DNA from: a virus
DNA: 38,922 nucleotides
Virus record (IMG/VR): IMGVR_UViG_3300030055_000017
Span: 1 to 38,922 of that record
Direction: 5' to 3' (one strand)
Below the pieces are notes generated by a model. It searched no databases, was not told the DNA's origin, and worked only from the letters and a program-made list of their open reading frames with translations. The position numbers and the translations under genes were made by a program. Shown here piece after piece: positions 8,433-38,378 of this stretch (its first letter is position 1; the number at the start of each line of letters is the position of its first letter).

Positions 8433-9200
8433 TTATGAAAATAAATGCATCTCTTTTGAGATATAACCATAATCCACAGTTTCAACAACTGAACGTTCGA
8501 CTGGTCCAGTCGGTCTAAATTTTTCTGGAATCTTCAATGCTTGTTCCATTGTAAGATCAACCATTTTTGTAGATCGCTTAAGAAATGTTCCGTGTCTAAA
8601 AAATCCTGGTTGCAATTCCCATGGATTTCCGGCTTCTCTAAGCATTTTCTTTTTAGCTTCAGAACCAACACCTTGAAGTGCTGTGTGAGAAAAATGTGCT
8701 TGAGCTGCCATCGAGATACTATTTTTTATGGCATCGCCTTGCCTCCATAGAAAATTGGCATGTACATCTTGGATAGTATCAACATTCCAAACTCGACAAT
8801 CAAATACTGCAATTTCATTTGCTTTTTCTTCAATATATGATGCGAGATACTTTGAGAAAAATGCTGAAGCCAATCCGCTTAATACTGAACACAACTTTTG
8901 ATACTTACCATCAAACATGTAAGTTGAGTCAATGTTTTCTGGGGTATTGTTCCAATACAGAGAAATTTCATCTGACTGAGTATACCCAAGTTTCGCATGA
9001 GTTTGTTCTATCAAAAATTTAGTAGTGTCAAACATGAGTTGACTCATTCTGATATCGTAAGGACGAGCAAGTCCACGTGTAAATGTGTGGAAGCTTCTGC
9101 CATCCAAACGAGCCATTAATGGTTTAAATGGATCAGCCTTCCGCCCAGCTTCAAGCTGCTCAACTGCTTTTAATGTATCGCCAATGCTATCTTTGTTCAT
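8433..9200 (-). CDS. Thg1-like 3'-5' nucleotidyltransferase (tRNA-His guanylyltransferase family)
   Basis: 255 residues from the ATG at 9200 (GGGAG upstream, ATGA overlap with the previous stop). The family signature is clear: PLMARLDGRSFHTFTRG near 27-43 with the metal-binding Asp33-Gly34, and YTQSDEISLYW near 73-83 with Asp77-Glu78 as further metal ligands. FDCRVWNVDTIQDVHANFLW and the helical C-terminus also match the Thg1 core. Thg1 proteins add G to the 5' end of tRNA-His; Thg1-like proteins of bacteria and phages usually repair 5'-truncated tRNAs by templated 3'-5' addition. It is translationally coupled to Acb1. tRNA repair against host tRNA-cutting defences is a reasonable inference, not shown by the sequence. 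Confidence 0.9.
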   Translation of the reverse strand: MNKDSIGDTLKAVEQLEAGRKADPFKPLMARLDGRSFHTFTRGLARPYDIRMSQLMFDTTKFLIEQTHAKLGYTQSDEISLYWNNTPENIDSTYMFDGKYQKLCSVLSGLASAFFSKYLASYIEEKANEIAVFDCRVWNVDTIQDVHANFLWRQGDAIKNSISMAAQAHFSHTALQGVGSEAKKKMLREAGNPWELQPGFFRHGTFLKRSTKMVDLTMEQALKIPEKFRPTGPVERSVVETVDYGYISKEMHLFS

Positions 9201-9652
9201 TCTTGCTCCCAATCAAGTTTAATTTCTTCAACATATTCTTTACCGAGGAAAATCGTAAAATCGATTGGTGGTAAAGAAGCAATATCGCCTTCAAAGTTAT
9301 ACGAAAGAGTGATATGTGGGTTGTAAACCGGATAGTCGTATGTTGCTGGGTGTTCAGCCATCAAAGTGTTGTGACGCTTGACAACATCAGGAGCATTTAG
9401 TAGAGCAACCAATACGGTATCTCCATGATCACCTGAGAACAATTCATACCCTTTAAATTCGCAACGGTAAATAATACCAGGATATGCAAACAGTTTTGGA
9501 CAATGAACTCGACTATAAATCAGCGTGGTGTGTAGACGCTGTTCAAACATTTGCTTTTTGACAGGGATGTTATTATCAATGCAGTGTTGATAAATATTAT
9601 CAGTAGAATCACCCAAAACCCGAAGACCAACGTATGTACCTTTTTTCATCAT
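9197..9652 (-). CDS. acb1: Anti-CBASS 2H phosphodiesterase Acb1 (T4 57B-like)
   Basis: 151 residues with two H-x-T motifs, HTTLIYS (His41) and HITLSY (His113). These define the 2H phosphoesterase fold. Length and spacing closely match T4 gp57B/Acb1 (about 152 residues, catalytic His44 and His113). The N-terminal MMKKGTYVGLRVL strand and the motif KLFAYPGIIYRC also fit. Acb1 degrades the cyclic di- and trinucleotide signals of CBASS defence, so infected cells do not trigger abortive effectors. The ribosome site is AAAGAGAT; the gene stop overlaps the Thg1-like start by 4 bases. Another 2H substrate (2',3'-cyclic RNA ends) cannot be ruled out by sequence. Confidence 0.82.
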   Translation of the reverse strand: MMKKGTYVGLRVLGDSTDNIYQHCIDNNIPVKKQMFEQRLHTTLIYSRVHCPKLFAYPGIIYRCEFKGYELFSGDHGDTVLVALLNAPDVVKRHNTLMAEHPATYDYPVYNPHITLSYNFEGDIASLPPIDFTIFLGKEYVEEIKLDWEQE

Positions 9653-9704
9653 ATCTCTTTCTTTAAAGATATAATTTTAACTTAAAAAGGTATTTTATAA
9701 AACT

Positions 9705-10076
9705 TTATTTGTCTTCTGCTTTCTTGAATGGAACAGCTGAATCATCTGAACCTGATGCACCATATTTTGCCATTATGAACTTTGAATATCCATCAATTGA
9801 TGCTACGTAGGTCAAGTAGATGGCAAAGATTTCAGTTGATAATTCTTTTGTGAGTGTAAGTTTGATAATAACCCAGGTACCAACAACACCACCAAGTAAT
9901 TGAAGAAGTTTAGTAGTTGAAACTTTTGTACCATCTCTCGTGATCATGTCTGACCACTGTAACGTGTTATTCTTCTGTCCCCTAAAAATGGCAATGACCA
10001 GCGCACCAATAAAAATTAGAATTGATACTGCATATGCATTAATTTGGTAACCGAAAATTTCAATCATGCTGTTCAT
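9705..10076 (-). CDS. Small membrane protein, holin candidate
   Basis: 123 residues with hydrophobic segments at about 13-31 (AVSILIFIGALVIAIF) and 60-75 (LLGGVVGTWVIIKL), then a weaker amphipathic one (EIFAIYLTYVASIDGYSKF) and a charged tail. Two starts three codons apart (M-N-S-M) recall the dual starts of some holins. A consensus late octamer lies 78-85 bases upstream, so expression should be late. The lysis role is inferred from size, topology, late control and the nearby endolysin; no specific holin family is recognised. Confidence 0.72.
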   Translation of the reverse strand: MNSMIEIFGYQINAYAVSILIFIGALVIAIFRGQKNNTLQWSDMITRDGTKVSTTKLLQLLGGVVGTWVIIKLTLTKELSTEIFAIYLTYVASIDGYSKFIMAKYGASGSDDSAVPFKKAEDK

Positions 10077-10153
10077 AAACTGCTGCCCACTGTAATTACT
10101 CTACTGACTTTTAATGGGAGAAGTCATTTGCCCTCTTAGTTATTTTATGAATT

Positions 10154-10161
10154 TATTTATA
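10154..10161 (-). promoter_or_regulatory. Late promoter octamer (TATAAATA)
   Basis: A perfect T4 late consensus on the minus strand in the 142-base gap, between the hairpin terminator and the 123-residue holin candidate. It should give that gene its own late transcript. Confidence 0.75.
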
Positions 10162-10170
10162 GCAGAAACA

Positions 10171-10201
10171 ATTTCGGGTACTAAAAATTAGTACCCGAAA
10201 T
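10171..10201 (-). terminator. Hairpin terminator after holin candidate
   Basis: A perfect inverted repeat with 14-bp arms (TTTCGGGTACTAA core) and a 3-base loop starts 17 bases after the stop of the 69-residue gene. Flanking A and T runs are short, so termination may need help or act in both directions. Confidence 0.6.
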
Positions 10202-10218
10202 ATTAGAACGACATTTGA

Positions 10219-10428
10219 TTACCAGACTATTTCTTCTTTTGATATTTTTCTTAATACTGCATTTACTGCAGATAAGATAATCAATTGAAATTCAGCAGGT
10301 ATAAAGAAACCAAATTTGAGTTGGATTCCTACTGCTGCAGTAGCTAATATATTTGCCCAAATAGTCTTAGACAGATACCACTTTTTACCAGATAATTCAG
10401 CGGTTACGATTTCAGTTGTAATAGACAT
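10219..10428 (-). CDS. Small two-helix membrane protein, holin candidate
   Basis: 69 residues. A polar start ends in GKKWYLSKTIWAN, then two hydrophobic segments (ILATAAVGIQLKFGFFI and EFQLIILSAVNAVL) and a short basic tail (RKISKEEIVW). The SKTIWANILA pattern with NAVLR near the end is typical of many small phage membrane proteins annotated as holins. The start codon lies in a 13-bp hairpin whose 5' arm contains a late-type promoter (10460-10467), and a strong hairpin terminator follows the gene. It sits between nrdJ and the other membrane protein. Confidence 0.75.
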   Translation of the reverse strand: MSITTEIVTAELSGKKWYLSKTIWANILATAAVGIQLKFGFFIPAEFQLIILSAVNAVLRKISKEEIVW

Positions 10429-10463
10429 ACCATTTTCCTTTGTAAAGTTTTGGTATGTCTATT
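10420..10463 (-). promoter_or_regulatory. Start-codon-sequestering hairpin before holin candidate
   Basis: In the mRNA sense AATAGACATACCA pairs perfectly with TGGTATGTCTATT (13 bp, 18-base loop). The AAAGGA site is in the loop and the ATG (10428-10426) is in the 3' arm. The octamer CATAAATA lies at the start of the 5' arm, so late starts would not contain the full arm. Confidence 0.65.
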
Positions 10464-10467
10464 TATG
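10460..10467 (-). promoter_or_regulatory. Late-type promoter octamer (CATAAATA) inside hairpin arm
   Basis: Minus-strand CATAAATA overlapping the end of nrdJ region and the 5' arm of the hairpin before the 69-residue holin candidate. Transcripts started about 6 bases downstream would lack most of that arm. Confidence 0.6.
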
Positions 10468-10470
10468 TGA

Positions 10471-12693
10471 TTAGAACACTAATTCACAAACTCCACCTGC
10501 ACAACCGGCTGCTGCCATTGTATCTACATCAACGTATTGTTGAGCTTGAAGTTCAGTTGAAAAGTCAATTGGCTTCATGGTGCGTTTGATGTTTGCCCAT
10601 TTGTGGAGATTGTAACAGTCCTTTACACAAGCTGTCATCTTATCATGATCACCACCAAAGAAGTTCTTTGTGAATTTCGTTGCTCTACGGATCCAATCTC
10701 GCTTCAACAAGTCTTCTGATTCTTCGCTTAATTTCAAACCTGTACCATTGAGTGTGTCACATGCCAACCAGAGGTTTTCATTGAATGCACGTAATGCTTC
10801 AACAATAAGACCAGAAGCAAACAATGAACCTTCACCATGTTTTTCAACAATTTCTTCATAGGTTAATACTTCGGTAAATGGTGCTTGAGCATAAGCTTTA
10901 TCACCGGAGAATGGCATCAAGGAAACACCTGCGAAGAATTTACGATTGTCAAATAGGTACTGTTCAACTTCATCCCAATCATCAACGGTGATTGTGTTAC
11001 TTACGTTGTGACGAAGTCTCTTATCTACGCAAAGATCAACATCAGTGCCGTATTCAATCCAGTATTGTTGAGCAAGTTTAACAAATTCTAACTGTTTAAC
11101 ACCCAACAAATCCTTACCATAAATTGAACCAGGGATAGTTTCAATAGGGAATGCTACTAAAACGTCTGTACCATTTGAACTCCATACAGATTTTTCAACC
11201 ATTTTAGGATTGATTCTCATAAAGTGTTGAGCAACTTCATCATTAATGTTCATCGTCACGTGGCGAACATAACGCTTAGCATGTTGACCGTGAATACCAG
11301 AAGCAGTTTCTAACAAAGTAGAAGCATTACCAGAAGGTTTAACAACTGTTGTTCTAGCAGCAGGGTTGATACCGATCAATGCAGCAATTTCTCTATTGAC
11401 TTGTTTGATAAGTGTAGCACCATCAATCATATTCTGTTTATTGAATAGAACGTCTGGGTTATTCATCCAACCAGTAATAGAACATCCAATCAAAGATTCA
11501 CGTTCAGTAATTTTCTTGGTTGCTGGTGTAAGGTATTTGAAGTTTGTGTAACCAGCTTGGATTGTTCCCAAGATAGCTGAAGCTCGGCAAGCTCTCAAAA
11601 AGATTTCGCGAGTTGAACATTTACCACCATTTGTTTCTGTCAAGTTACAAAATTGGAATCCAGATTCACCATCTTCTGTCTTAGGCAACATTCCAACTTC
11701 AACACATGGATTAAACATGAACTCATCTGAGTCAGAGAAGATAAATCCTGGCTCGCCAGAATCCTTAACCGTCTTCATGATTGCAGCCCATTCTTCACGT
11801 GTGATGTCATCACGGATAATAAGTGCAGAGTTATTTGAACGACCACGTTGAGGCTGAGTCACTCTCCAATTTCCAGTTTTAGCATTGAGCATGTCTTTGT
11901 CATCTTTGTCAAAGATACAAATTGTTGCTGAACGTCTAACACCACCAGATAGAACTGCATCACTCATGTGCATTACGAAGTCGTATGCTGTGATTGAGTT
12001 AATCTTCATGATTGGGGCATCATCAAGAAGCGTTTCCAACAAATCTTCACATTTGACTAATGCTTTACGGAGACCATCTGGACCAGGTGCTTTAAATCCA
12101 CCAGAAATCTTTGATCCTTCTGGACGAATTTTAGTGAAGTCAAATCGTATTTGTGCACCACGATATTCTGGATGAGTAGCACCTTCAGTGAAATATGAAC
12201 TCAACAATACGGCAAATGCATCTGACCAACCTTCAATTGAATCTGGAATTTGGAACACTTTTGCTTTCTTTTGAGAACGTCTAGCAATGGTTGGCAACTT
12301 GGTAATGTACTTCTTACCAACAGAAAAACCAACTCCAACTCCTGACAACATCAAATACATACATTCATTAAAGAATGCTGGACGATCTGCATAAGAAACG
12401 GAACAGTTATACATTCTACTTTCATGCTTGAAAATCTGTTCACCACCGAATTGAAGAGCACGTTGTGCACCCAAAACCAATTTTTCCTTATATGCTTCTT
12501 CAGCAAACAACATTGCTTCATCAAGTGCAGGACTCATAACTGCAGCATATTTCTGTCTGTGCATCGCCATAACACGGGAAACCGCTTCTTCCCAAGTTTC
12601 ATAACCACCTTTTACTTCATCCCATCGGGAATATCCCATATAGAACTTTGATTCTGCCATCATTGAACTACCATTTATTATTTTCTCTGTCAT
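10471..12693 (-). CDS. nrdJ: Class II (adenosylcobalamin-dependent) ribonucleotide reductase
   Basis: 740 residues, the size of the monomeric Lactobacillus leichmannii RTPR (739). Active-site signatures are NPCVE (Cys330 thiyl radical site, Glu332), FCNLTETNG with Cys349, and RMYNCSVS with Cys97 as the reducing pair. SGVGVGFSVG, SGGVRRSATI and NVSNTI also match. The C-terminal CAGGVC places the redox cysteines at 731 and 736, the same numbers as in RTPR. It reduces ribonucleotides to deoxyribonucleotides for phage DNA synthesis, needs host B12 and works with or without oxygen. No nrdA/nrdB pair or thioredoxin gene is in this window. The ribosome site is AGAGG. Confidence 0.95.
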   Translation of the reverse strand: MTEKIINGSSMMAESKFYMGYSRWDEVKGGYETWEEAVSRVMAMHRQKYAAVMSPALDEAMLFAEEAYKEKLVLGAQRALQFGGEQIFKHESRMYNCSVSYADRPAFFNECMYLMLSGVGVGFSVGKKYITKLPTIARRSQKKAKVFQIPDSIEGWSDAFAVLLSSYFTEGATHPEYRGAQIRFDFTKIRPEGSKISGGFKAPGPDGLRKALVKCEDLLETLLDDAPIMKINSITAYDFVMHMSDAVLSGGVRRSATICIFDKDDKDMLNAKTGNWRVTQPQRGRSNNSALIIRDDITREEWAAIMKTVKDSGEPGFIFSDSDEFMFNPCVEVGMLPKTEDGESGFQFCNLTETNGGKCSTREIFLRACRASAILGTIQAGYTNFKYLTPATKKITERESLIGCSITGWMNNPDVLFNKQNMIDGATLIKQVNREIAALIGINPAARTTVVKPSGNASTLLETASGIHGQHAKRYVRHVTMNINDEVAQHFMRINPKMVEKSVWSSNGTDVLVAFPIETIPGSIYGKDLLGVKQLEFVKLAQQYWIEYGTDVDLCVDKRLRHNVSNTITVDDWDEVEQYLFDNRKFFAGVSLMPFSGDKAYAQAPFTEVLTYEEIVEKHGEGSLFASGLIVEALRAFNENLWLACDTLNGTGLKLSEESEDLLKRDWIRRATKFTKNFFGGDHDKMTACVKDCYNLHKWANIKRTMKPIDFSTELQAQQYVDVDTMAAAGCAGGVCELVF

Positions 12694-12783
12694 AATTACC
12701 TCTGTTATAGTTTGTCAATTTCCAGAGTATAGAAAACCCGCATCGTTAACACGATTTTAAGAGTACTCTATTTTCTAGAAGGT

Positions 12784-13365
12784 TTAAATTTTAGATAACG
12801 CGTAGGATGTAATGTTGTTAATCCTATTTGTCCATCCTTTCAAAAACACTTTTTGGGATGGTTTATTTGCAACAATATCATTGTAGAATTTTAATCTCAA
12901 TGCTGATATTGCTTCAACTATCTCTTTCTGATTTTTTATAGATATAGTATTTAATGTTACTGGTCCGATACTTCCATCAGCGGTTACACCAACTGATGTT
13001 TGAAGAAACTTGTTAGCTCTTCCAACACCGTGGTTAACACAACCATCAAAATGAATTGCCGAAACAGCAGCACTTAATTTATCACACTTACCAGGAATCC
13101 AATATCTGTCAAAGTAAACCTGCATGGCCTGTTCCATTGTCAGATTGGTTATATCCAAATCAGGATTAGCATTTTTTGCTACACCGAATTTAGTCTCACC
13201 ACCAGTATCTTGCTTTATATTTACATACCCCACCTTCTTCTTTTGTTCAGGGGTTGTAATTGAACCTGCGATAACATCTGGATCTTTAGGATTCCATAAT
13301 GGACCCACTTCATCTAGCATTAAGTGGTTGAATGCGTCTGTATATTCTTTACTAAAATCAGTCAT
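12784..13365 (-). CDS. Endolysin, GH108 N-acetylmuramidase family
   Basis: 193 residues. The N-terminal lysozyme domain has LMLDEVG with the candidate catalytic Glu19, then GGETKFGVAK near 55-64 and LDITNLTMEQAMQVYFDRYW near 70-89. This is the GH108 pattern. The C-terminal part (CVNHGVGRANKFLQTSVGV, then DGSIGPVTLNTI) fits the peptidoglycan-binding domain commonly fused to GH108. It cuts the cell-wall glycan at lysis. No signal peptide is seen, so it needs a holin. Its ribosome site is held in a hairpin that overlaps a late promoter octamer. Confidence 0.9.
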   Translation of the reverse strand: MTDFSKEYTDAFNHLMLDEVGPLWNPKDPDVIAGSITTPEQKKKVGYVNIKQDTGGETKFGVAKNANPDLDITNLTMEQAMQVYFDRYWIPGKCDKLSAAVSAIHFDGCVNHGVGRANKFLQTSVGVTADGSIGPVTLNTISIKNQKEIVEAISALRLKFYNDIVANKPSQKVFLKGWTNRINNITSYALSKI

Positions 13366-13394
13366 AATAATCTACCTCGTTAAGATAGATTATT
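13366..13394 (-). promoter_or_regulatory. Ribosome-site-sequestering hairpin before endolysin
   Basis: In the mRNA sense AATAATCTATC pairs with GGTAGATTATT (11 bp with one U-G pair, 7-base loop). The 3' arm holds the GG of the GAGG ribosome site and ends next to the ATG. The 5' arm overlaps the octamer AATAAATA. Confidence 0.65.
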
Positions 13395-13398
13395 TATT
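13391..13398 (-). promoter_or_regulatory. Late-type promoter octamer (AATAAATA) before endolysin
   Basis: Minus-strand AATAAATA 26-33 bases before the endolysin ATG. It overlaps the 5' arm of the endolysin leader hairpin by 4 bases, so late transcripts should start inside the arm. Confidence 0.6.
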
Positions 13399-13428
13399 CC
13401 CTAACCGGTTATTACACAGAAACCAGGT

Positions 13429-13947
13429 TTACCAAGAGAAGATGTCTCCGATAACTTTTCCATTCAGATGTTTATGCAGATCATGTGGCCCTATAACTAC
13501 TGAAAGCAGGTTAGGAGTTGTCATTGATACGATAGGAGCAGGACCAACAGGATGAACCAAAGCTGTTCCTTTATTGATCATTGGATGTACAAGTGACATC
13601 TTTTCAACATAATCAATTACCATAATGTCAAGAGTTCTAAGCTTCATTTCACTAGGTGAAAAGCTAAAAGCTAGATGTTGAGTGGTTGCACAGGATTGAA
13701 TTGGTACTGTATCAATCTGATACGTTTCACGTTCAGTTACTAGAATGCTCCATGTTGAAGGAATCCAAAATTCATAGTTGTTGATGCGAACTTTTAATGC
13801 TGCACCAGTAGTTTCTTCAAGATATTGAATAGGTTGAAGTGTAAAGTCTGTCATGGGTGCATCAAACATCCAATTATGTTTTACAACGATTGGTGATGTG
13901 AGAGAACTTATTATGTAAGTCCGGCCATAGTCTGGAAGTATATCCAT
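13429..13947 (-). CDS. Conserved protein of unknown function next to the endolysin
   Basis: 172 residues, mostly beta, with no membrane span or cysteine cluster. Recognisable stretches are LEETTGAALKVRINNYEFWI, SPSEMKLRTLDIMVIDYVE and IGPHDLHKHLNGKVIGDIFS. It starts with a GGAGAT ribosome site directly across from the divergent homing endonuclease gene. The even, gap-free sequence suggests a well-folded conserved phage protein; no family or function is recognised. Confidence 0.75.
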   Translation of the reverse strand: MDILPDYGRTYIISSLTSPIVVKHNWMFDAPMTDFTLQPIQYLEETTGAALKVRINNYEFWIPSTWSILVTERETYQIDTVPIQSCATTQHLAFSFSPSEMKLRTLDIMVIDYVEKMSLVHPMINKGTALVHPVGPAPIVSMTTPNLLSVVIGPHDLHKHLNGKVIGDIFSW

Positions 13948-13961
13948 TTTTAAAAAATCTC

Positions 13962-13969
13962 CATAAATA
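13962..13969 (+). promoter_or_regulatory. Late-type promoter octamer (CATAAATA) of HNH gene
   Basis: Plus-strand CATAAATA 30 bases before the HNH endonuclease ATG. It also lies within the leader of the divergent 172-residue gene. Confidence 0.6.
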
Positions 13970-13998
13970 AGATAAGGTTGATTGTAAAGGAAATAAAA

Positions 13999-14709
13999 AT
14001 GTTTAATGAATCAAAATACACAAAATATTATTTTAATATAATTGAGCGAGCAAAAATTAGAAATAAACCTTGCTTAGCTGAAAAACATCACATAATACCC
14101 AAAAGCATGGGTGGTACTGAAACTGTCTATTTAACAATGAGAGAACATTTTATTTGTCATTTGCTTTTGGTAAGAATGTTAGTGGGTGATAATCAGAGGA
14201 AAATGTTGTGGGCATTACATAGAATGCTATTCAGTAAAAATGATAAACAGCAGAGATATATTCCATCATCGAGGACATATGAAACATTTAGAACACGTTT
14301 CGTAAAGATGCTATCGGTACCCAAATCTGAATTACATAGACAAAAACTTGCAGACCACTTAACAATGATGAACAAAGATCCATCGATGAAAGCTAGACGT
14401 CTTCAAACAAAGATTGATAATAATACCCTAATGCATTCAGAAGAGACAAAATCAAAAATATCTTCAACTGTCAAAGCATCAATGTCAGCACCGGAAATAA
14501 TCGAAAAAATGAAAATATCAAGTGCTAAGAGATGGGCAAATAATAACGAAAGACAGAAAATAGCTGATAAAAATTCAAAAACCTTTACGTTAACACACAG
14601 ACTAACAGGAGAATCAACTACTGTAACAAATCTTGCTAAATATTGTAGGGATAACAGTGTCAGTTATGGGAAAGTACAAGTAGATTTTATTGTAACCCGA
14701 CTAAATTAA
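13999..14709 (+). CDS. HNH homing endonuclease
   Basis: 236 residues from the ATG at 13999, chosen for its AAGG site and because the frame opening at 13978 is a TTG inside the leader. The HNH motif is EKHHIIPKSMGGT near residues 27-39, followed by YLTMREHFICHLLLVRM, the usual phage HNH nuclease pattern. The C-terminal half has the NUMOD3-like HSEETKSKISST and a NUMOD1/helix-turn-helix-like end (VTNLAKYCRDNSVSYGKVQV) for DNA binding. It is a free-standing mobile gene on the strand opposite to the operon, inserted between two genes, with its own late-type promoter (13962-13969). Confidence 0.9.
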   Translation: MFNESKYTKYYFNIIERAKIRNKPCLAEKHHIIPKSMGGTETVYLTMREHFICHLLLVRMLVGDNQRKMLWALHRMLFSKNDKQQRYIPSSRTYETFRTRFVKMLSVPKSELHRQKLADHLTMMNKDPSMKARRLQTKIDNNTLMHSEETKSKISSTVKASMSAPEIIEKMKISSAKRWANNNERQKIADKNSKTFTLTHRLTGESTTVTNLAKYCRDNSVSYGKVQVDFIVTRLN

Positions 14710-28569: not shown

Positions 28570-28824
28570 TTACAGAACCCTAGATTTTGGAATTTTAATT
28601 TTCTGTGCGAACTCAATGTTGCGTCTTATAGTGACATGACGTAAAAGTTCTTTTCTTAGAAATTGAATTTGTGATTGAGTTGGTTCAAATTTATCTTCAG
28701 TCCTACATCTACTAACTTCAGTCTGAACCATAAATTCGATTACGTCATTATAATGGTTGACCCGCTCTGATGTTAGATTAACAAACATCCTAACAGGTTT
28801 ATTTTCATCATTGTGATAATTCAT
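28570..28824 (-). CDS. Hypothetical helical protein upstream of terminase
   Basis: 84 residues, highly charged and helical (TEDKFEPTQSQIQFLRKELL, RHVTIRRNIEFAQKIKIPK). It overlaps the ART-like gene at 28808 by 17 bases and is the last gene of the array before terminase. Position would suit a small terminase subunit, but it is far shorter than gp16 and shows no similarity I can see. Function is unknown. Confidence 0.68.
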   Translation of the reverse strand: MNYHNDENKPVRMFVNLTSERVNHYNDVIEFMVQTEVSRCRTEDKFEPTQSQIQFLRKELLRHVTIRRNIEFAQKIKIPKSRVL

Positions 28825-29617
28825 GATAAGCTGCTCTAATTTGTTTCCACAAACTCTCTGTCATAATGATACAGTCGCCTTCAACCCATACTTCTGAACT
28901 TGAGTGGTGCGGCATTGTTGATGCAGTAACCCATGTGTGTCCGGTTTCATCTGGGCTATAAGCTTTATCAATACTTTCAAGAAAATTATTATGTGGGTAT
29001 TTATCTGTTCCTTCTTCCCCATAATTCCAGATTTTATTGAATTTTCTACTTAAAGACGGTATTGTATCAACATCTTTATCAAATTTAATAAATGACTCCC
29101 ATGTATGATCAATCATATTTTCATCAACCATTTCTTCAAAAAATTTATTGATAGTATTTATCTGTCTTCTAACGCCAAAAATATCTATACGAGTATCCCA
29201 CATATCATCAAGATTAACAAAACCTATTTTAGTATCATCGTATGGAATAATCGCATGTACAATTTCATCACTAAAATCTTCTGCTCTACTTCTTCTAGTA
29301 GAAGCAATTAATGATTTGCTTCGTTTTGGGAAATCTTTTCTACTGGGTGTATTGTCTAATATCAATGTATAGAAATTACTAGTGTTCTGACTCTTTCGTG
29401 TTGACAGTCTCGTGTCTAAAGAAACAACTCCAGTGTCAGATAATACTTGAGTTAATTTTCTATCACTTCTGTAAATTGGTCTGTTCTCATGAAGCATCCA
29501 TAGAGCATTTTTGCAATGTGCATTGAGTAATCTTATAGCCTTATCAACAACAATAGTTTGATATTTTGGTTCTGAATCAACGGGCCTTTCTTGTAGGAAC
29601 TGTTTAAAATTAAGCAT
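28808..29617 (-). CDS. Putative packaged ADP-ribosyltransferase-like protein, copy 1
   Basis: 269 residues. The leader MLNFKQFLQE ends in L-x-E, a likely prohead-protease cut after residue 10. The body has WMLHENRPIYRSD (Arg50), TRKSQNTSNFYTL, PKRSKSLIAST and IIPYDDTKIGFVNLDDMWDT. The end is SEVWVEG (Glu242) and SLWKQIR. R...S-T...E order is that of R-S-E type ADP-ribosyltransferases, and T4 Alt is a packaged ADP-ribosyltransferase. Here Gly after Arg is replaced by Ser. Family membership with the next two genes is certain by eye; enzymatic function is inferred. Confidence 0.8.
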   Translation of the reverse strand: MLNFKQFLQERPVDSEPKYQTIVVDKAIRLLNAHCKNALWMLHENRPIYRSDRKLTQVLSDTGVVSLDTRLSTRKSQNTSNFYTLILDNTPSRKDFPKRSKSLIASTRRSRAEDFSDEIVHAIIPYDDTKIGFVNLDDMWDTRIDIFGVRRQINTINKFFEEMVDENMIDHTWESFIKFDKDVDTIPSLSRKFNKIWNYGEEGTDKYPHNNFLESIDKAYSPDETGHTWVTASTMPHHSSSEVWVEGDCIIMTESLWKQIRAAYHELSQ

Positions 29618-30398
29618 TTAAATCCTCACGCATTTGGTTCCATACGGATGGCGCAATCATTAATATTTTTCCACCTATCCACACCTCACTAGGTGTGCCA
29701 TCATATTCATAGTTTGCTGGGGTGAAATGTTCTGGTCCAATTTTTCTATAATCATATGCACGTTTTATTTCTTCTAAAAATGAATATCTATATGATTCTG
29801 CATCATAAATTTTCAATTCTTTAAGGAAAAAAGAAAAATTCTCAAAAGCTTCTTCATCATCATTTTTCAATTTTTTATCAAATTCAACAAATGAATCCCA
29901 TGAAACATCAGACAATTTTAATTCCCTAAAATATCCATTTATGGAAGATATTCTACGAGACTTTCCAAAAAAATCTATTGATAAATCCCAAAAATCCTCT
30001 CTTCCCACGTAACCTATTTTAGCATCATTAAACGGAACAACAACAAAATAATTATAGTCATCAAAATAACCTGCTGTGACTGCGCTAGTTGAACAAATGA
30101 ATGAACGTGATCTTTTAGGATAGTCTTTATTAACCGGATTATTATCTAATAGTACGGTGTAATAATTAGAAGTGTTTTGACTTTTTCTTAATGTTGCAGA
30201 AGTATCAACGGTGAAAGCATCAGCATTTTTAAAGCGCACGCCTTTATCTCCTCTATAAAAAGGAGTATTATTTTTAAGCATCCACATTGATTCACTACAG
30301 TGAGTTTTCATGATAGTAAGAATGTCATCCTCAACTTCACTATAATTTGGTTCTGAATCTATTGCGCGTTCATGGAGGAACTGTTTAAAATTAAGCAT
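29610..30398 (-). CDS. Putative packaged ADP-ribosyltransferase-like protein, copy 2
   Basis: 262 residues with the leader MLNFKQFLHE, differing by one residue from copy 1. The catalytic pattern is complete: TPFYRGD (Arg49), LRKSQNTSNYYTV, PKRSRSFICSTS, VVPFNDAKIGYVG, and SEVWIGG (Glu238). The middle region (residues about 150-220) has diverged from copy 1. It overlaps copy 1 by 8 bases. It reads as one of five tandem or near-tandem duplicates, with leader and active-site segments conserved and the rest free to vary. Confidence 0.8.
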   Translation of the reverse strand: MLNFKQFLHERAIDSEPNYSEVEDDILTIMKTHCSESMWMLKNNTPFYRGDKGVRFKNADAFTVDTSATLRKSQNTSNYYTVLLDNNPVNKDYPKRSRSFICSTSAVTAGYFDDYNYFVVVPFNDAKIGYVGREDFWDLSIDFFGKSRRISSINGYFRELKLSDVSWDSFVEFDKKLKNDDEEAFENFSFFLKELKIYDAESYRYSFLEEIKRAYDYRKIGPEHFTPANYEYDGTPSEVWIGGKILMIAPSVWNQMREDLNA

Positions 30399-31374
30399 TA
30401 AATTTTTCTCTTATTTTATTCCACATATCTACTGTCATTAATAGAACTCTACCTCCAACCCAAACTTCAGAGTTTTTAGAGTAACTTTTTATAGATGAAG
30501 TGTTTCCTTTTATGAATCCTGTTGAGCTTGGTGCATATCCTTTATTTATTTCTTCAATGAAAGAACGTTTGAATTGTTGTGCTTTAATTTCACCAAATGC
30601 ATTTTTAAAATCTTCAAATGCCGCTGATTCATCATTTTTTAATGCCTTATCAAAATTAATGAAAGATTCCCAATTCGTGTCAGATAATCCAATATCTTCA
30701 TAAGAATCATTTACATCAGCTACATCTCTCAATGATCCAAATACTCTTATATTTATGTCCCACATATCTTCACTACCAACAATACCTATTTTCGCATCAT
30801 CAAATGGGATACACACCATTAATTTTTCATCATTTCCACTAACAAACTTTCTAGCATATCTAAGGTCATTAGACATTATAAATGAACGTGAACGTTTAGG
30901 GAATCCATTCATACTTGGAATATTATCAAAAATTAGAGTATAGTAATTAGATGTATTTTGACTGACTCTTTCTGTCTTAGAAGAATCCATTATTCCAAAA
31001 CCACTATGAATACTTAAATCATGTGCATAACCACCTTTATCACCTCTATAAAAAGGTCTATCCTGTTCTAACATCCAAATAGCATTTTTACAATGTGTGT
31101 TTAACGTTTCGACTGCGGCTTCAACATCTAAATGTGTTAACGTTGGGAATTTATCTACAGGTTTTTCATATAAGAAATCCTTAAAAGATAAGCTCTCTTT
31201 TAAACCCATCATTTTCTTTGCGATGCCCATTGTCAATGCCCAATATTTAGCATCATTTTCATCCACGTCATATTCTTTTTTGACAATATTACTAGCAACA
31301 TGCCAGTAATGTTCTGCTTGTCCGAATGAAATTTTTGCTTTCTTCGAAAGATGTTTAAGGGCGGTATCTGGCAT
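30391..31374 (-). CDS. Putative packaged ADP-ribosyltransferase-like protein with extra N-terminal domain, copy 3
   Basis: 327 residues. It starts with a helical module of about 55 residues (LKHLSKKAKISFGQAEHYWH and DAKYWALTMGIAKKMMG) that other copies lack. Then comes ESLSFKDFLYE, the shared leader in internal position. The body has RPFYRGDKGG (Arg110), RVSQNTSNYYTL, PKRSRSFIMSN, IPFDDAKIGIVGSEDMWD and SEVWVGG (Glu303). An alternative start at Met55 or Met56 (31212/31209) would place the leader near the N-terminus as in its relatives. The extra module is a pattern seen in phage structural proteins. Confidence 0.78.
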   Translation of the reverse strand: MPDTALKHLSKKAKISFGQAEHYWHVASNIVKKEYDVDENDAKYWALTMGIAKKMMGLKESLSFKDFLYEKPVDKFPTLTHLDVEAAVETLNTHCKNAIWMLEQDRPFYRGDKGGYAHDLSIHSGFGIMDSSKTERVSQNTSNYYTLIFDNIPSMNGFPKRSRSFIMSNDLRYARKFVSGNDEKLMVCIPFDDAKIGIVGSEDMWDINIRVFGSLRDVADVNDSYEDIGLSDTNWESFINFDKALKNDESAAFEDFKNAFGEIKAQQFKRSFIEEINKGYAPSSTGFIKGNTSSIKSYSKNSEVWVGGRVLLMTVDMWNKIREKFNA

Positions 31375-34753: not shown

Positions 34754-34783
34754 ATTATTTTAGCTCGATTAAGTTAGATAGAT

Positions 34784-34791
34784 TATTTATT
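34784..34791 (-). promoter_or_regulatory. Late-type promoter octamer (AATAAATA)
   Basis: Minus-strand AATAAATA 31 bases before the 465-residue acidic virion-like gene; the bases that follow (ATCTATCT) are the same as behind the endolysin octamer. Confidence 0.5.
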
Positions 34792-35730: not shown

Positions 35731-36377
35731 AATGACTCCATAAGCTGTCGCATTTCTTCACTATTCCATACATCACCAGATTGGTTGAATGCATAATATC
35801 GTTCACATTTAAACATGATTTCAGCACCATAGTTAATACACTTTACTAAATCAGTATTAAATGTCCAAGAAACTTCATCTAATTGCTTAACCAGATATTT
35901 TGTTGCAAGTTCAATAATTTCATCATAGCTAAATGAACGTGATACATCTCTGTTTTTTATATATTCACGCTCTTTACTGAGAGCTACTGTCAGATCATAA
36001 AAACGATCATTGATGTCCGTGCAGCTCAACCACTCAAACTTTCCAATCGGGAAAATAATATTTGGGCCTGTCAAGCCTGAATAAATTTCAGCAGAATCAT
36101 GTCTTCCAGTAGCAAACATCCAATCTCTAGCTTTAACTCCAAATTTCTTATCAAACAGTTCGTTGAATGCACGGTGTGCAGCTATTGGAGTATTTCTGGG
36201 TCCATCTCTTGGGACCCATTTTGCAATTTCGAAATCTGGGTTTTTATCCTTTGAACCCCTAAGCATCAATGCACTACCACCAGTTCCCTTTAGCTCACCT
36301 AAAATAAAAGAACAATCCTTTTTGAATTTTTCTAAATCGAATTTTGATTCTTCTTGAAGGTACTGTTTGAATCTCAT
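35727..36377 (-). CDS. Putative packaged protein, paired family copy B
   Basis: 216 residues from the ATG at 36377 (overlapping the upstream TGA; the frame opens at a GTG at 36389). The leader is MRFKQYLQE with an L-x-E site. It has LMLRGSKDKNPDF, RNTPIAAHRAFNELFDKKFG, KARDWMFATG, IIFPIGKFEWLSC and AEIMFKCERYYAF. These align with copy A along the whole length, showing a tandem duplication. Function is unknown. Confidence 0.76.
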   Translation of the reverse strand: MRFKQYLQEESKFDLEKFKKDCSFILGELKGTGGSALMLRGSKDKNPDFEIAKWVPRDGPRNTPIAAHRAFNELFDKKFGVKARDWMFATGRHDSAEIYSGLTGPNIIFPIGKFEWLSCTDINDRFYDLTVALSKEREYIKNRDVSRSFSYDEIIELATKYLVKQLDEVSWTFNTDLVKCINYGAEIMFKCERYYAFNQSGDVWNSEEMRQLMESL

Positions 36378-37108
36378 TGTTTGTACCACCCTGCAATTTT
36401 ATTTTCTAAGGTTTCCATTGTCACTATACCAGGAGATAGATATTTTAATTTCTCTTCCTTCATTTTTTCGAGATTTCTTTTGCCAACAATATTTTGAACA
36501 GGCTCATTGAAGAATGATTGTGCTGATTTGAAAGCTTTTAGCATTTCTACATTTGATAAATCATCATTGTCATTGTTGATAACCTTATAGAAGTTAACTT
36601 CCGATTGTAGGTACTTAGCATTTTCTTCACTTAGCTTAAATACTGCTTCAATAAAATGTTCATCTACTTCTCTACCAATTTTTGAAGCTCGTTCTATTGC
36701 ACGTGCTTTAGCAGTTTCTAAACTGGTACGTACGTAAACAACACCAACATCATACCCCAATGATTTCAAAATACCCATTCTATGTTGAATGTTTGAAATA
36801 TCATTAGATGTTCCATCAACGAATAATGGCAACATACTGTTGATATAATTTTGAAGAGATGTTTTTGTAATATTGTGAGCAGAATCTTGAAATATTTCAA
36901 CCCAGTTTTTTGAGTTAACCATTAATCCGATTTTTTTACTTAAAAATTCAGATGCTCTATCAGTGTTGATAACCTTTGGCGATATTGATCCTACCATCTG
37001 TTTAACGGTATAAGATTTTCCGGCACCAGGTATACCAACAACAAAAAGGGCTTTTAAAATGCCCTTGTCCTGAATACTTTCTTCGATAAATTGTTTAAAT
37101 GTTTTCAT
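36374..37108 (-). CDS. Putative packaged zeta-toxin/PNK-like P-loop kinase
   Basis: 244 residues. The leader is MKTFKQFIEE, nearly the T4 internal-protein peptide. The kinase domain has VVGIPGAGKSYTVKQM (P-loop 25-32), INTDRASEF (substrate Asp-Arg), LFVDGTSNDISNIQHRMGIL (Walker B region) and VYVRTSLETAKARAIERASK with GREVD as lid. This plan is that of zeta-toxin and polynucleotide-kinase-like enzymes. The substrate is unknown; zeta toxins phosphorylate UDP-activated sugars, PNKs act on 5'-OH ends. Delivery with the phage DNA is inferred from the leader. Confidence 0.8.
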   Translation of the reverse strand: MKTFKQFIEESIQDKGILKALFVVGIPGAGKSYTVKQMVGSISPKVINTDRASEFLSKKIGLMVNSKNWVEIFQDSAHNITKTSLQNYINSMLPLFVDGTSNDISNIQHRMGILKSLGYDVGVVYVRTSLETAKARAIERASKIGREVDEHFIEAVFKLSEENAKYLQSEVNFYKVINNDNDDLSNVEMLKAFKSAQSFFNEPVQNIVGKRNLEKMKEEKLKYLSPGIVTMETLENKIAGWYKQ

Positions 37109-37992
37109 AATCTCATACCATTAAATAAAATTTGTATATTGTGAGAGATATTTACACCAGAATATTCGATATCTGGTAATAATTCTTTCATAGCAGCTAA
37201 ACTGATAACTAATGCGCGACCGGAAAACCAAAGTTCACGCTCTGAATAAGAAGATATGCTATCAACATTGTATTTATAAGTCTCAAGACCTAATGATTCT
37301 GGAGACATGAAAAAGCTGCATATCGCATCAAATCTACTCATACCAACACTTATGTATTTTTCAATTTGTTTTATTCCTGCTTCAATATCGTGTACGAGTA
37401 ATGCTTGTAGAAAATTATCAAAACCGTTTGGTGACATTTCTGACATAGCATGATTCAGCGATGCTGATGTCATATCTTCAATACCCAAACTTAAATACTG
37501 TGAAAAAAGTATTCCTATCTTATGTGAAAAATCTTTAACTGTTCGTGATCCAAATGAAGTTTTAGCATTCCCTTCAACACGTTTAAACAACAAATCACTT
37601 TTATCTGCTACAGCAATAATCTGTTGTCTTCTTGGAAAGATAACATATCTAGTACCAAATTCATCAGCTGTATCAAAATCATTTGTACAGATCAATGATT
37701 TGCTTCTTGATGGATAGTCTTTCATAAACATTGAATTATCCATCATTATCTGATACACGTTATTTGTGTCTTTTGATTTTCTTTCACCCTGTGAAGCATC
37801 AATAAAGGAAATGTCTTGAGATGGTGGAGTACTAAATCCTCTAAAGATTAAATTATTATGTTCTAAAGCATATTTGGCATTTAATAATATCCATTCAAGT
37901 GCATGTTTTCTTGAGGCATCATTATCTACAGCCCAACCTTTTTTAACATGAGGTGGTAAATCATCTTCATACAGAAATTGTTTGAAGTTCAT
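37105..37992 (-). CDS. Putative packaged ADP-ribosyltransferase-like protein, copy 4 (divergent)
   Basis: 295 residues from the ATG at 37992 (the TTG at 38013 opens the frame). The leader is MNFKQFLYE. The family signature persists: NNLIFRGFS (Arg51), ERKSKDTNNVYQIMMDNSMF, YPSRSKSLICTND and ELWFSGRAL (Glu253). The middle has diverged greatly from copies 1-3 and gained a helical insert (about 150-230). It overlaps the GNAT gene by 4 bases. Gly after the Arg is kept, as in copies 2 and 3. Confidence 0.76.
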   Translation of the reverse strand: MNFKQFLYEDDLPPHVKKGWAVDNDASRKHALEWILLNAKYALEHNNLIFRGFSTPPSQDISFIDASQGERKSKDTNNVYQIMMDNSMFMKDYPSRSKSLICTNDFDTADEFGTRYVIFPRRQQIIAVADKSDLLFKRVEGNAKTSFGSRTVKDFSHKIGILFSQYLSLGIEDMTSASLNHAMSEMSPNGFDNFLQALLVHDIEAGIKQIEKYISVGMSRFDAICSFFMSPESLGLETYKYNVDSISSYSERELWFSGRALVISLAAMKELLPDIEYSGVNISHNIQILFNGMRL

Positions 37993-38378
37993 TTTGAATG
38001 ATCCTTGTTCCAAAACAATTTACCCATACCTGTTTGAAGTTTTGATGGTGCTATATCATTGCCTAACTCTCTAGCAAATTTATACATTTCTGTTGCTATT
38101 CCTTTTCTACGATATGCAGGTTGAATTGATAAATCAAGTGCTTCTAGATTACCATCTTTATTTTCAAAGTTGACCCAACCAATTTCAGTAGTTCCTTTTT
38201 TAGCAACTATTCTAAACTGTTCACTTTTGAATCCTGGCTTTGCGCCATACCCTACCCACCCACAAGTAGCTACTAGGGTAAATTGATCGTCTAATATTTT
38301 CTTCTCTTCACGAAAATCTGTAAAGAAAATTTTACTATTGACTTTTTCTCGTAAGAAGTCTTTAAAGGTTTTGTGCAT
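37989..38378 (-). CDS. Putative packaged GNAT acetyltransferase
   Basis: 129 residues. The leader is MHKTFKDFLRE with an L-x-E site. The remainder is a small GNAT fold: TTEIGWVNFENKDGNLEALD (beta strands), LSIQPAYRRKGIATEMYKFA (motif A, RRKGIA acetyl-CoA loop at 90-95), and a final FWNKD. The substrate is unknown; delivery in the head would make it an immediate host-modifying enzyme. A late-type octamer (38403-38410) lies upstream. Confidence 0.8.
   Translation of the reverse strand: MHKTFKDFLREKVNSKIFFTDFREEKKILDDQFTLVATCGWVGYGAKPGFKSEQFRIVAKKGTTEIGWVNFENKDGNLEALDLSIQPAYRRKGIATEMYKFARELGNDIAPSKLQTGMGKLFWNKDHSK

Follow-up and report, generated by a model that had tools for sequence, protein, structure and literature searches.

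The endolysin gene of this uncultured virus very probably lies behind a timing switch of the kind known from T4 gene e, built here on a non-homologous endolysin. In the 38,922-nucleotide stretch of DNA that we analyzed (the window), the minus-strand leader of the gene is AATAAATAATCTATCTTAACGAGGTAGATTATTATG and was folded as the 41-nt strand GGAATAAATAATCTATCTTAACGAGGTAGATTATTATG. It forms a hairpin of 13 pairs, two of them G-U, closed by the loop AAC. The Shine-Dalgarno GAGG lies entirely within the 3' arm, the ATG follows immediately after that arm, and the first four bases of the 5' arm are the last four of a late-promoter-like octamer, AATAAATA (T4 consensus, TATAAATA). The preliminary description of this DNA had proposed an 11-bp stem with the arms AATAATCTATC/GGTAGATTATT, masking GAGG and overlapped by the octamer at the start of its 5' arm; the arms are present and can be extended to 13 pairs, and the masking and the overlap (four shared bases) are as it described them. 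The predicted fold has an energy of -12.2 kcal/mol, compared with -3.2 +/- 1.8 in dinucleotide shuffles (z -5.0; 0/200 as low), and in the long RNA the Shine-Dalgarno has an unpaired probability of 0.05. The plus strand of the same region folds no better than its own shuffles (z -0.5), and a search of positions 9500-14500 found no Rfam family up to E = 1. The coordinates of the features are collected in Table 1.

Table 1. Features of the switch-bearing region and of a repeated gene family in the window
Feature	Position	Strand	Basis or remark
Late-promoter/hairpin switch preceding endolysin	13366..13398	-	Fold and sequence inspection
Late-promoter-like octamer	13391..13398	-	T4 consensus; positional enrichment of TAAATA in relatives
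5' arm, endolysin hairpin	13382..13394	-	Shares last four octamer bases
3' arm, endolysin hairpin	13366..13378	-	Contains Shine-Dalgarno GAGG (13378-13375)
Predicted late transcription start	13385	-	From T4 spacing, octamer at -13 to -6
Endolysin, GH108 + PG_binding_3, 193 aa	12784..13365	-	Pfam PF05838 and PF09374 above cut-off; phrog_315 endolysin
Gene X, 172 aa, upstream of endolysin	13429..13947	-	Co-directional; conserved neighbour in hairpin-bearing relatives
Ribonucleotide reductase, flanked by endolysin and holin candidate	10471..12693	-	phrog_367; same co-directional run
Holin candidate, 69 aa	10219..10428	-	Small membrane-type by eye; no family match
Second switch	10420..10467	-	CATAAATA at 10467-10460; 13-bp stem 10463-10451 / 10432-10420, pairing AUG
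phrog_12810 ORFs	28808-29617, 29610-30398, 30391-31374, 36374-37108, 37105-38013	-	phrog_12810 match

The octamer owes its significance to position and not to frequency. It occurs in the AT-rich window at chance level (6 found, 5.0 expected). In the relatives, the TAAATA core stands 23-34 nt before 69 of 1086 ORF starts, a position at which most hexamers of the same letters are found 3-12 times and the overlapping ATAAAT 32 times. The leader of another window ORF (34753-33356) begins with AATAAATAATCTATCT (34776-34791, minus strand), the same as the start of the endolysin leader; a matching 3' arm is absent there.

The preliminary description had placed the endolysin in family GH108, which the Glyco_hydro_108 match bears out (61.5 bits, curated cut-off 21.2), and Glu19 is invariant in 34 aligned sequences. 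A nucleotide search against named phages gave no match, and the endolysins of named phages are below 40% identity among the matches listed. The gene belongs to a minus-strand run that comprises a single-strand binding protein, UvsX (at ~21 kb), UvsW, gene X, the endolysin, a ribonucleotide reductase and the holin candidate. A terminator scan of the minus strand from 21370 to 10201 found no strong terminator-like site, the first of the run being at 10201-10171. Gene X has homologues in three named phages; in XacN1 and RAS14 the homologue stands in a RecA-like/helicase/X/clamp-loader run with no endolysin after it. Since gene X there stands between a helicase and genes other than an endolysin, the endolysin here appears to be embedded in a replication-type operon, and early transcripts would be expected to cross it.

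Several other genes of the window deserve mention. Just upstream of gene X, on the opposite strand, an ORF with a EKHHIIPKSMGGT motif (13978-14709, plus strand; HNH homing-endonuclease-like by eye) has CATAAATA ahead of it at 13962-13969, and it might affect read-through. The minus strand also codes for a match to Pfam Acb1, an anti-CBASS protein (9197-9652; 98 bits, cut-off 27), and a tRNA-His guanylyltransferase (8433-9212; Thg1, phrog_4717), and five ORFs between 28808 and 38013 match phrog_12810, an unknown family, forming a repeated gene family.

The mechanism that we propose has an early and a late phase. Early and middle transcripts reading through from upstream genes would carry the 5' arm, and this long RNA would fold into the hairpin; with GAGG hidden and AUG mostly hidden, little translation of such transcripts would be expected. 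In the late phase, RNA polymerase carrying a gp55-type sigma factor would initiate from the octamer within the 5' arm, and the resulting mRNA, without most of that arm, would stay open and be translated. T4 late promoters consist of a box of 8 bp lying roughly one turn of the helix ahead of the transcription start, with A rather than T at -13 at nine T4 sites (PMC2988020). If T4 spacing applies, RNA made from the predicted start would lack 9 of the 13 nucleotides in the 5' arm. Opening the ribosome site (-12 to +3) is computed to cost 12.6 kcal/mol in the long RNA and 1.1 in the truncated one; the same procedure gives 15.2 and 3.8 kcal/mol for T4 gene e. A scan for sigma-70-like promoters revealed no excess (61 found, 54.5 expected). 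The gp55 family (phrog_234) was found in all 11 re-searched contigs of at least 239 kb and, when the window and 25 relatives were searched, in 15 of these 26 records. It was not found in the 38.9-kb window, itself a fragment of a phage that presumably encodes it.

The T4 lysozyme gene e switch was described by McPheeters et al. in 1986 and is reviewed in PMC3014915: the structure forms in long early transcripts and not in late ones, and it lowers lysozyme synthesis about 100-fold compared with transcripts that lack it. T4 homing endonucleases follow the same early-fold/late-open mechanism (PMC2988022). The likeness to gene e drawn in the preliminary description stands, as both geometry and opening energetics match. 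Both leaders have the octamer in the 5' arm and the Shine-Dalgarno in the 3' arm, the TAAATA core is at -32 in T4 and at -31 here, opening costs are similar for long and truncated RNA, and in each case a lysis enzyme gene lies among genes of the same direction. Gene e differs in coding for an enzyme of the T4 lysozyme family instead of GH108, in having two octamers and in a leader without sequence homology to the present one, for which the switch is a computed one.

It is improbable that the hairpin acts in RNA stability or processing, or as a terminator, instead of blocking translation. Cleavage of read-through RNA by an RNase could occur at the endolysin leader as well, but the predicted late mRNA would be without the hairpin, and in most leaders the Shine-Dalgarno or the AUG falls within the 3' arm. 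As for termination, there is no T run after the hairpin, and the site was not listed in the terminator scan.

Returning to the proposed translational switch, we looked at its pairing in relatives of the endolysin, collected in two overlapping searches of viral contigs (50 and 80 loci). These are environmental contigs, in which start codons were placed with the help of alignment and the nearest ATG. Almost all octamer-bearing relatives have the octamer ~20-50 nt before the ATG, and their stems differ, as in L017 (AATAGCCTTC/GGAGGCTATT), L028 (ATAGACTTCTC/GAGGAGTCTAT) and L010 (AATATCCCCATAAT/ATTATGGGGATATT). The MAFFT alignment (A2) lost the register of the stem; therefore, covariation was judged from swapped arms and in a register counted from the octamer. 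The 5' arm pairs with its own 3' region at far lower energy than with the 3' regions of other relatives (z -10.6, 33 leaders). After removal of similar arms the value is z -9.7 for 25 co-directional leaders, with 0/50,000 permutations as low, and for 14 divergent leaders it is z +0.5. Past the octamer core, most stem positions are occupied by several kinds of standard pair, so pairing has been maintained despite a near-complete turnover of the stem sequence. The preliminary description had singled out conservation or covariation of the stem in relatives as the comparison on which its reading would depend; own arms beat swapped arms, and that reading is supported.

The same data make it quite unlikely that the repeat serves as a protein-binding palindrome in double-stranded DNA (an operator or promoter element) and that the RNA hairpin is incidental. 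The repeat does overlap the promoter, and in three relatives (L002, L120 and L125) it is replaced by an inverted repeat with the octamer at its centre, but a binding site would keep its sequence, whereas only TAAATA is kept and the arms change together. Moreover, the end of the 3' arm is near the start codon and not at a fixed distance from the promoter. The three belong to a set of six co-directional loci (with L004, L128 and L134) without a hairpin hiding the ribosome-binding site, in which another inverted repeat has the octamer in its loop (CACTTCCGTC-TATAAATAGAA-GACGGAAGTG in L125). In two other leaders, L108 and L135, the stem AATTTTTCTC/GAGAAAAATT precedes the ATG and the TAAATA core is absent; in L108 an HNH-type gene is co-directional and just upstream of the endolysin.

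The direction of the upstream gene provides a natural control for the RNA switch. Upstream neighbours of the endolysin were identified by homology, and a hairpin was called at an opening cost of at least 8 kcal/mol. In the co-directional class (38 leaders) the endolysin follows a gene X homologue, with an extra gene between them in a few. Hairpins were called in 29 of these 38 and in none of the 18 divergent leaders (Fisher 2e-8); the divergent ones usually have back-to-back octamers, and none reaches 8 kcal/mol. Nine co-directional leaders do not fit, their hairpin over the ribosome-binding site being weak or absent. Where an HNH-type gene has been inserted (L017, L018 and L114), the locus was classed by the older neighbour; in L114 and L017 the inserted gene is on the opposite strand and the hairpin is still kept. 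Seven loci with neither neighbour adjacent were excluded from the count (among them L043, L045, L080, L108, L116, L123 and L131). Composition does not account for the orientation effect: corrected by shuffling (z >= 2), the counts are 27/38 co-directional versus 0/18 divergent, and among contigs under 42% GC, at the same z, 9/10 versus 0/18. On the IQ-TREE phylogeny of the endolysin the divergent context takes six changes, at least three of them on well-supported branches, and the association is therefore not one event. That the switch follows the direction of the upstream gene is comparative evidence suggesting that its purpose is to block early read-through. A chance inverted repeat in an AT-rich leader is scarcely credible, for although the window has 35% GC, AATAAATA alone is at chance frequency and under a stricter opening-cost control the endolysin leader taken alone reaches no more than z 2.6, pairing is kept across relatives with changed sequence, own arms beat swapped ones, and the hairpin is wholly absent in divergent contexts of similar composition.

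A second instance of the same design had been proposed before the holin candidate. The octamer and a 13/13-bp stem, different in sequence from that of the endolysin leader, are real (fold z -5.1). This half of the proposal is the weaker one: the gene itself has no Pfam or PHROG match and no match in named phages, and most of its relatives are without the hairpin.

To see how widely the design extends over other genes, the opening difference was calibrated on T4 starts behind TAAATA. The highest values are those of I-TevI (14.9), e (12.7/11.5), 49 (10.4), I-TevII (10.1), segB (10.0) and soc (8.7), six genes at 8 or more, and no other such start is above 6.1. Hairpin regulation of each of the six is stated in PMC3014915 or PMC2988022. 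We then surveyed the 162 octamer-led ORFs of four relatives and the window, with a pass set at z <= -3 and a difference >= 6. Fourteen pass, among them all five endolysins, an enrichment that is biased since the four contigs were picked from hairpin-positive phages; a less biased figure comes from the fetched loci (14/34 endolysins versus 2/34 other octamer-led ORFs). The other passing ORFs of the survey are the window's holin candidate and its G016 homologue, a GIY-YIG gene, a resolvase-like gene (PDDEXK_15, phrog_244) and five without clear function.

The resolvase-like gene has octamer and hairpin, with differing stems, in three related phages (L239, L241 and L243); in L245 the hairpin is absent and the gene sits behind back-to-back octamers. 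It parallels the hairpin of T4 gene 49 (Holliday junction endonuclease VII), although the PDDEXK_15 nuclease is unrelated to endonuclease VII and its resolvase role is a family annotation. GIY-YIG genes of relatives (a 250-aa ORF in L009, and ORFs of 208 and 257 aa in G016) share the promoter-in-arm design with the hairpins of T4 I-TevI, I-TevII and segB and of Aeh1 mobE (PMC2988022), which are homing endonucleases, whereas the gene in the window is an endolysin. Hence, of the convergent timing of lysis genes suggested in the preliminary description, the endolysin switch is upheld, but the restriction to lysis genes is too tight: the switch is also present on resolvase-like and homing-endonuclease genes of related phages.

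The mechanism itself is known. Structures of the e type have been reported only in close T4 relatives, with none in several others that have gene e (PMC3014915). To this the comparison of these genomes adds a new gene family, shows the switch in many uncultured phages and ties its presence to the direction of the upstream gene. On balance, we favour the view that across a large set of gp55-encoding uncultured phages the switch has been repeatedly gained and lost, according to whether a harmful late gene follows co-directional, presumably early genes, and that it has been built on endolysins, resolvase-like nucleases and homing endonucleases. If so, this set would be a counterpart of T4 e, 49 and I-TevI/segB, made up largely of non-homologous enzymes. 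In the phages compared here, an endolysin family unrelated to that of T4 carries the design, with stems of many different sequences, and the T4-calibrated metric offers a simple means of picking out late genes of gp55 phages that are sensitive to timing. A promoter within a hairpin would then be a predictable, repeatedly evolved solution and not a peculiarity of T4.
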